A DNA stretch of 38,342 bases from a virus. The notes under the pieces were generated by a model that saw nothing but the letters and a program-made list of their open reading frames with translations, did not search any database and was not told the origin of the DNA. Position numbers and translations under genes: made by a program. The stretch spans positions 1 to 38,342 of IMG/VR virus record IMGVR_UViG_3300037041_000125, one strand, 5' to 3'. This document shows, piece after piece, positions 30,001 to 31,844 of this stretch (positions are counted from its first letter, which is position 1; the number at the start of each line of letters is the position of its first letter).

Positions 30001-30040
30001 GTGTGTCAGATGTGTGGTGTGTCAGATGTGTGGTGTGTCA
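30001..30040. repeat. 16-bp tandem repeat, 2.5 copies
   Basis: GTGTGTCAGATGTGTG occurs twice perfectly (30001-30016 and 30017-30032), followed by the first eight bases of a third unit. It lies 32 bases upstream of the terminase small subunit start and could be a protein-binding site, for example for terminase or a late activator. Confidence 0.9.
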
Positions 30041-30616: not shown

Positions 30617-30653
30617 ACATGGCAAAGTCGCCATGTAACGTAAGGTAAACAAA
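30617..30653 (+). promoter_or_regulatory. 5' leader hairpin and TGTAACGT-AGG ribosome site of the early operon
   Basis: ACATGGC-AAAGTC-GCCATGT forms a 7-bp stem (30617-30636), near the start of a transcript from the TATACT at 30607. The following TGTAACGTAAGG (30634-30645) with its ribosome-binding AAGG resembles the TGTAACGTTAGG leaders at about 31191 and 31543. Confidence 0.6.
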
Positions 30654-30764
30654 ATGATCCGCTCTCTCGCTCTCCCCCTGATCTTCACGTTCATCACGCT
30701 AGCCGCTAGCCTCTGCCTGATGCTTGCTTATTTCGACTGTTTAACTCAATCTTGGAATCTGTAA
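30654..30764 (+). CDS. One-TM microprotein, 36 aa
   Basis: This is the first gene of the early operon. The product is nearly all one hydrophobic segment (LALPLIFTFITLAASLCLML) with a basic residue before it and a short polar tail, so it should sit in the inner membrane. It has an AAGG ribosome site in a structured leader, and the next gene starts one base after its stop. I recognise no family. Early one-TM phage peptides may inhibit host functions or superinfection, but nothing shows that here. Confidence 0.6.
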   Translation: MIRSLALPLIFTFITLAASLCLMLAYFDCLTQSWNL

Positions 30765-30765
30765 C

Positions 30766-30924
30766 ATGAATACAATTTTTGCATCACTCCCAATCGGCAC
30801 TCGCTTCACCTGTAACGGTAACGAGTGCGTGAAGCAGTCCACACGCACCGCGCTACTGGTCAACGTTGACCGCGTTTTTTACTTTGCACGCACTGACCGG
30901 GTGCGGATTATGGGAACTAAATAA
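30766..30924 (+). CDS. Small conserved phage protein, 52 aa
   Basis: The pattern FASLPIGTRFTCNGNECVKQ followed by STRTALLV...RVFYFARTDRVRI resembles a conserved small phage protein seen in Burkholderiales and enterobacterial phages (L-P-x-G-x-x-F...N-G-N...K-x-S-x-x-T-A). It is predicted to be a small beta barrel. A GGAAT site precedes the start, and the previous stop is one base upstream. Function unknown. Confidence 0.75.
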   Translation: MNTIFASLPIGTRFTCNGNECVKQSTRTALLVNVDRVFYFARTDRVRIMGTK

Positions 30925-30925
30925 C

Positions 30926-31138
30926 ATGAAAACTCCACGCTACTACGCTCTGCGCTGCTACCCCTCGCATGGCTTCCCTAAATTTATTGATAGCTTCAAA
31001 ACTTTGGCATTGGCCCGTAGTTGGGCGGCTCAAGCTATCCGTGACGGGTATTGTTCCGTTGAAATTCTCAGGGATCAATCCATGCCATCAGGTTATTTTG
31101 GAATCCAACGCGACTTAATTGACACTATCCGCGCTTAA
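30926..31138 (+). CDS. Small hypothetical protein, 70 aa
   Basis: A 70-aa mixed alpha/beta protein (RYYALRCYPSHGFPKFIDSF, LARSWAAQAIRDGYCSVEIL). Alternation of strand and helix suggests a compact globular fold, with no catalytic motif. I chose ATG 30926, one base after the previous stop with GGGAA upstream, over an earlier in-frame ATG lying inside the 52-aa gene. Its stop lies within the first copy of the repeated leader. Function unknown. Confidence 0.7.
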   Translation: MKTPRYYALRCYPSHGFPKFIDSFKTLALARSWAAQAIRDGYCSVEILRDQSMPSGYFGIQRDLIDTIRA

Positions 31139-31212
31139 GATTTCCACTGTAAGCCCCTATCGGGGGTTTACGGGGTCAATTTTGGCTCACTGTAACGTTA
31201 GGACAATTTATT
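31135..31212 (+). repeat. Structured leader repeat, copy 1
   Basis: A conserved 14-base head (from TTAAGATTTCCACT) is followed by a 9-bp hairpin (31149-31157 with 31163-31171, loop TATCG). Then comes a 40-base block identical to copy 2, ending in a TTAGGA ribosome site before the 92-aa gene. The stem differs from copy 2 by paired changes, so the RNA structure is probably selected. Confidence 0.88.
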
Positions 31213-31491
31213 ATGCGCAAAATCGAAACTCAAATGTTAAACGCCGTTTCAACATGCTCAACATGGCATGGATCAAATACCACGGTGTCATCAATCGACG
31301 GGGTAAATTGTGCAGTGTATCTACACAATAATCATATCGCTGACGTAAACAGTCAAACCGGATTTGTGATGGTCAACAAATACACGTTGCGCAAGTGGCC
31401 TAGCGTCACCACTAAATCGCGCTTGCGTGCACTGGGTGCAAAGGTTAGCACTTTCAAGGGTGTCACCTACTTGGACAATGTAGCCGTTTAA
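31213..31491 (+). CDS. Conserved phage hypothetical protein, 92 aa
   Basis: The layout (RKIETQMLNAVSTCSTWHGS, NTTVSS, CAVYLHNNHIADV, then TLRKWPSVTTKSRLRALGAK and GVTYLDN) matches a small conserved phage protein family with the W-P-S-x-T-T-K-S-R-L-x-A-L block, function unknown. It is predicted to form a beta-hairpin followed by a helix. Translation is served by leader copy 1, and the stop runs into leader copy 2. Confidence 0.8.
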   Translation: MRKIETQMLNAVSTCSTWHGSNTTVSSIDGVNCAVYLHNNHIADVNSQTGFVMVNKYTLRKWPSVTTKSRLRALGAKVSTFKGVTYLDNVAV

Positions 31492-31562
31492 GATTTCCAC
31501 TGTATACCTTCGATGAGGGTATACGGGGTCAATTTTGGCTCACTGTAACGTTAGGACAATTT
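31488..31562 (+). repeat. Structured leader repeat, copy 2
   Basis: It has the same head and tail as copy 1, around a different 9-bp stem (31502-31510 with 31516-31524, loop CGATG). Stem positions 4 and 9 change from A-T to T-A and from C-G to T-A; positions 5 and 8 change one partner while keeping pairing. It ends in the TTAGGA ribosome site of the 93-aa gene. Confidence 0.88.
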
Positions 31563-31844
31563 ATGCGTATCACTCAAAAGTTTCTCGAAGCTCAAATCAA
31601 AAACCTTAATACCCTAGTTGGCTTGGATGGCGTGCCGATTTATCGTGTTGACGATACGGGCAAAGTTATCGGCGGTAACCCCGGCGTGTATTGCCTATCA
31701 TGCGCATATGGTGGATATGCACTGCACCGAATGAGCGCGTCGGGCGGTACTGGAGTAAACGATATATTCGGCGGTCACGGCCCAGCGCGTGAACTGTCCG
31801 ACAAGATTAGCGCGCTGATGTACGGTATCGGGCTTTCCAAATGA
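31563..31844 (+). CDS. Small hypothetical protein, 93 aa
   Basis: An unrecognised 93-aa protein. The N-terminal helix (ITQKFLEAQIKNLNTLVG) is followed by PIYRVDDTGKVIGGNPGVYC and a Gly-rich middle (CAYGGYALHRMSASGGTGVN). The C-terminus is helical. The N-terminal pattern recalls small phage proteins with a Q-I-x-x-L-N block. It is served by leader copy 2, and its stop overlaps the next start (ATGA). Function unknown. Confidence 0.75.
   Translation: MRITQKFLEAQIKNLNTLVGLDGVPIYRVDDTGKVIGGNPGVYCLSCAYGGYALHRMSASGGTGVNDIFGGHGPARELSDKISALMYGIGLSK

Follow-up and report, generated by a model that had tools for sequence, protein, structure and literature searches.

RNase III sites in the polycistronic mRNA of phage T7 are intergenic hairpins, imperfectly paired over about 20 bp and interrupted by an internal loop. 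Covarying cis-acting RNAs are also represented among the leader families of Rfam. In T4-type phages, PeSL cassettes (Arbiol 2010; Comeau 2014, as cited in PMC4503421 and PMC5931544) are described as composite promoter–terminator motifs. Ribosome termination structures (RTSs; Chemla et al. 2020) were defined by folding energy across genomes: post-stop structures are enriched at a gene spacing of at least 25 nt, with a maximum close to the terminating ribosome's edge, and in a synthetic Escherichia coli operon a stable structure just after the stop codon lowers re-initiation (PMC7518266). Here we describe an apparently undescribed structured RNA from the junctions of small accessory genes in a lineage of uncultured podovirus-like phages; what is new is that a post-stop hairpin forms a conserved family and also marks a joint between gene cassettes.

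With 19 pairs and a bulge, this element matches the imperfect intergenic hairpin of about 20 bp with an internal loop seen at T7 RNase III sites, and adds to it a stop-codon register and a nearly invariant core around a bulged A. Like an RTS, it is a stable mRNA structure just 3′ of a stop codon at an operon gene spacing over 25 nt; whereas RTSs are defined by energy, it is a family of homologous sequences that share a nearly invariant core and hold the stop codon within a helix. It shares with PeSL cassettes, as the citing papers describe them, repeated intergenic hairpins and the shuffling of phage genes, but two of the three PeSL features examined are absent: the early promoter, since no promoter-like match was found on the + strand between the stop codon and the next gene (sigma-70 consensus only), and the U tract of a terminator, which is displaced in one class of copies (class A) and lacking in the other (class B). 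The hosts also differ, being T4-type phages for PeSLs and Sf6/P22-type phages for the element. A scan of the analysed DNA and its relatives with all 4,227 models of Rfam release 15 gave nothing above the gathering threshold or with E < 1, in line with an initial annotation of this DNA that had called the structure previously unnamed.

The analysed DNA (hereafter the window) is a 38,342-base IMG/VR virus record in which a rightward run of small genes is situated between leftward terminase genes and the primase gene (Table 1). Element copies occupy the X/g1 and g1/g2 gaps of this run. The initial annotation had reported two leaders (31135–31212 and 31488–31562) with a common head and tail and a differing 9-bp stem, and sequence, repeat and pattern searches recovered both of them. 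They form a 91-nt direct repeat, 82% identical, at a spacing of 353; their 40-nt tail gave two exact matches against 0 expected in the pattern search, and leader 1 has 3 nt more than leader 2 ahead of the ATG. Stem 1 is GTAAGCCCC/GGGGTTTAC and stem 2 is GTATACCTT/AGGGTATAC, and they differ by two double changes (A-T to T-A and C-G to T-A) and two wobble changes (G.T to A-T and C-G to T.G), exactly as claimed. Folding compared with dinucleotide shuffles gave z scores of −3.6 for copy 1 and −2.8 for copy 2, and the 60 nt counted from the stop codon reach −23.8 and −21.3 kcal/mol, ranks 1 and 3 among the 54 stop codons of the window.

Table 1. Positions of the junction hairpins and neighbouring genes in the window (CM R1, covariance model R1).
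Feature	Position	Strand	Basis or remark
Gene W	30766–30924		within rightward small-gene run
Gene X, upstream of copy 1	30926–31138	+	70 aa; without known family
Junction hairpin copy 1, 51 nt	31135–31185	+	CM R1 74.4 bits, E 3e-14 (training member); z −3.6
TAA stop of gene X; AA paired in outer helix	31136–31138	+	
Outer helix 5′ strand AAGAUU	31137–31142	+	partner 31178–31183; compensatory changes across relatives
CC clamp and bulged A31146	31144–31146	+	clamp partner GG 31174–31175
Apical helix (31147–31157 with 31163–31173) and 5-nt loop	31147–31173	+	includes the 9-bp stem of the initial annotation
Outer helix 3′ strand AAUUUU	31178–31183	+	folding, covariation
AGGA Shine-Dalgarno in conserved tail UGUAACGUUAGGA, outside hairpin	31200–31203	+	
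g1, downstream of copy 1	31213–31491	+	92 aa; Kyano_Gp96 / phrog_554
Junction hairpin copy 2, 51 nt	31488–31538	+	CM R1 74.9 bits, E 2.5e-14 (training member)
TAA stop of g1, inside copy 2 outer helix	31489–31491	+	
Bulged A, copy 2	31499	+	folding, alignment
Apical helix and loop, copy 2	31500–31526	+	sequence, folding
AGGA Shine-Dalgarno, copy 2	31553–31556	+	
g2, downstream of copy 2	31563–31844	+	93 aa; without known family

Several other features of this neighbourhood were recorded. The g1 family has 185 matches in annotated phages, nearly all of them cyanophages, yet g1 is carried here by an Sf6/P22-type phage with a gammaproteobacterial phage relative. Palindromes of the form AACCCNNTGGGTT occupy seven to eight places between 30062 and 30607, in the space that separates the small terminase gene from the rightward operon, against 0.68 matches expected across the whole window; three of the copies form an 18-bp tandem array, and the palindromes are likely repressor operators or origin iterons. 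A tandem array of GTGTGTCAGATGTGTG with 2.5 perfect copies lies at 30001–30040, and at 30634–30742 the ribosome-site motif TGTAACGTWAGG, as in the leaders, precedes a tiny open reading frame for an apparent membrane peptide.

The element is about 51 nt long (50–55 nt among copies) and is composed, in order, of an outer 6-bp helix, a 1×2 or 1×3 internal loop, a CC/GG clamp, a bulged A, a U.G plus UA/UA core and an apical helix. Folding of the window copies gives a 1×2 internal loop, pairs AAGAUU on the 5′ side with AAUUUU on the 3′ side in an outer helix that takes in, as its first two pairs, the last two bases (AA or GA) of the upstream stop codon, and places C-G and U.G pairs at the base of the apical helix, below the stem first described. 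The 9-bp stem of the initial annotation stands, but it is only the top of the hairpin, whose outer helix, clamp and bulged A had been missed; nor does the hairpin begin right after the stop codon, the last two bases of which sit within the outer helix. That description also lacked the fixed stop-codon register and the exchange of neighbouring genes. Among 24 aligned copies the bulged A is present in 23; the clamp and the central core are nearly invariant, while the outer and apical helices differ among copies in a covarying manner.

Searches by sequence pattern, by protein and by covariance model together yielded 23 distinct copies in approximately 20 uncultured phage contigs (loci are labelled L plus a number). 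A broad pattern, CCACTGTA..TACGGGG, was run on viral contigs and read among the matches listed only, and a stricter pattern was used next; exact and gapped patterns gave copies in viral contigs, 15 of which (class A) were used to build covariance model R1, which matches one or two copies per phage record. Protein searches for relatives of g2 and of g3, which follows the element in several contigs such as L010 and L088, led to contigs with more diverged hairpins, scoring under R1 34 bits (L209), 29 bits (L208) and 22 bits (L185 and L207). The class B hairpin, TGACAAT-GCC-A-GCT-apical-GGC-GGGA-ATTGTC, keeps the architecture with a sequence largely different from that of class A, and the L207 hairpin is a further variant. 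Model R2, trained on 19 copies, matched L175, L184, L187, L190 and L194 at 34–46 bits; these lay outside the training set, although several had already been spotted by eye. Decoy loci from the broad pattern scan (845 kb) gave no match above 21 bits, and the antisense strand none above 20 bits with R2.

Nucleotide searches of annotated phages returned no credible DNA match, and the model found no element in the related phage DSL-LC05 (terminase 77%). When 84,980 prokaryote genomes were scanned with a pattern, four matches emerged; they score 18 bits at most with the model and were judged to be chance. The terminase of the class B phages L184, L187 and L190 is 68% identical to that of the window, and the element family therefore reaches fairly deep within a single phage lineage. 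The g3 proteins are a small acidic family (phrog_9974) occurring in dozens of phage contigs, with loci in L151, L010, L088, L123, L125 and L175–L195; peptides whose ends (LMLAYFD) resemble that of the apparent membrane peptide at 30634–30742 seem to be placed before g3 relatives in L172, L173 and L182. At L171:2900–3005 a different hairpin followed by GGGG (AAAGCCC GTTTA GGGCTTT GGGG) precedes a g3 relative; the model gives no match there, and the hairpin is possibly an additional variant of the element.

The initial annotation had interpreted the stems as a selected RNA structure and had proposed a covariance search, which recovered both further copies and conserved pairing with strong covariation. 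Across the 23 distinct copies, in an alignment that was fitted to the model and so leans towards structure, 98.8% of cells are paired and 10 of the 19 pairs show double changes; the covariation score is 0.549 against 0.194 ± 0.018 for shuffled alignments (0/500) and at most 0.093 with partners slid, figures that are not probabilities since the shuffles ignore the relatedness of the copies. The class A copies alone, aligned plainly with MAFFT, point in the same direction, with 99.3% of cells paired and a score of 0.326 against 0.141 ± 0.018. The pair adjoining the bulged A switches from C-G to G-C between lineages, and in class B a change of the stop codon between TAA and TGA is matched by U or C on the opposite strand. 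In the sense orientation we counted 46 G.U cells and a single A.C cell; because G.U pairs occur almost solely in this orientation, the mRNA is the folding, selected molecule. These results support the element as a real structured RNA under selection. An integron attC-type site or a DNA cruciform was ruled out on the same strand counts and on the antisense scores, given that a folded-DNA function should not favour the mRNA strand in pairing.

Of the 24 listed copies, a few of which share identical elements, 21 have the first base of the upstream stop codon at exactly element position 2; the exceptions are L081, with the stop at position 3, and L036 and L066, in which the stop precedes the element by 12 nt. 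The genes ending in these 21 copies belong to at least eight unrelated-looking families (X, Z, g1, V, which is DUF7227, Y, MTRQKY, MLRSPS and those of L207 and L194), and the downstream genes are of at least five unrelated-looking types. In all 24 copies the next ATG lies 18–27 nt past the element, and 8 nt separate the end of the stop codon from the apical helix. Alternatively, the element could bring its own stop codon and always be joined there, which fails to account for joins at the same base to so many genes unless selection keeps the register. Stop readthrough was ruled out, as element length varies and frames are not kept.

Comparison of small-gene orders by tblastn revealed that the same genes recur in different combinations around the element. 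With S denoting the element, the orders are W-X-S-g1-S-g2 (window), W-Z-S-g1-S-g2 (L002), W-Z-S-g2 (L003), W-Z-S-g1-S-g3 (L109), g1-S-g3 (L010), X-S-g3 (L088), Z-S-g3 (L123), W-Z-Y-S-g3 (L125) and V-S-g2 (L020), with X-S-g3 (L175, L184) and MTRQKY-S-g3 (L185) in class B. Pairwise blastn blocks have their boundaries at the element; between window copy 1 and L003, for example, the element is common (−2 to 76) and the adjoining genes differ. The window terminase shares 97–100% identity with its counterparts in L002, L003 and L125, so the gene exchange is recent. The conserved flanks of the element are 94% identical between copies whose neighbour genes are 57–78% identical (39 of 82 same-residue codons differ in this comparison), and the same stem sequences recur at different junctions. 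Element edges are thus gene-swap points of these phages, at which flanking genes are freely recombined. The joins W-g3 (L151) and g1-g3 (L169) are made without it; the element is therefore dispensable.

From these observations we infer, tentatively and with a little less than even confidence, that the stop-registered junction RNA insulates neighbouring small genes, its apical helix blocking ribosome re-initiation. A terminating ribosome on the stop codon would sit over the outer helix and the clamp, opening the former, and its leading edge would meet the apical helix 8 nt past the stop. The apical helix would keep the ribosome from sliding on to re-initiate, and the next gene, the Shine-Dalgarno sequence of which is free outside the hairpin, would be translated solely from its own ribosome site. 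Every such gene would be insulated by the same junction, which would make the genes exchangeable by recombination at elements and explain the free gene swapping. Insulation fits the position and stability of the element, since post-stop structures cut re-initiation in a synthetic E. coli operon (PMC7518266). Against it stand the copies in L036 and L066, with their displaced stop codons, and the element-free joins of L151 and L169. Moreover, the bulged A and core are nearly invariant beyond the needs of a generic insulating hairpin, which points to a specific binder or nuclease, perhaps as the main function; the core would probably also bind a factor.

A strong rival to insulation, if on balance a somewhat unlikely one, is an RNase III type processing site at which a double-strand RNase would cut the imperfect hairpin and release the small genes as separate mRNAs with protected ends. 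Its placement after one gene's stop codon and ahead of the next ribosome site, the 19 pairs with a bulge and an asymmetric internal loop, the conservation of the core around bulge and loop and the folding of the sense strand all agree with processing, which nevertheless needs no exact stop-codon register. We regard it as unlikely, more so than processing, that the element is an operator at which a trans-acting RNA-binding protein of phage or host would recognise the core and switch the small genes together: a nearly invariant core between covarying helices, placed before at least five unrelated-looking gene types, accords with such an operator, but the Shine-Dalgarno sequence lies outside the structure, each phage record holds only one or two copies and no candidate binder was identified. 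Insulation, processing and a protein operator may coexist.

It is very improbable that the element is a PeSL-like recombination joint only, kept as homology for swapping with a hairpin of little RNA role; the shuffling at its edges, the reuse of stem sequences at different junctions and the element-free phage DSL-LC05 accord with such a joint, whereas the strand-specific G.U pairing and the compensatory changes that keep the RNA fold between the L088 and L175 elements, at 55.6% identity, argue against it. An intrinsic terminator or attenuator between genes can hardly be the answer and was rejected: a simple scan flags both window copies because TTTT comes after the stem, but in class A this U run is part of the outer helix, about 6 nt away from the apical stem, and in class B, for example in L175 and L209, it is missing altogether. 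Nor does a promoter-like site occur in the stretch that separates the element from the next gene.

Taken as a whole, the preferred account of insulation with factor binding would define a phage RNA class that reads termination, in which the stop codon pairs within a factor-recognised bulged-A structure and thereby makes interchangeable insulated cassettes, although we consider this full version unlikely. The element is a covarying phage RNA family with no counterpart in Rfam or, as judged by DNA sequence, in annotated phage genomes. It provides a natural case of a stop codon fixed inside a conserved structure and an evolved element on which to test the insulator role proposed for post-stop structures, and it ties RNA structure to modular gene exchange in small phages, beyond the T4-type.
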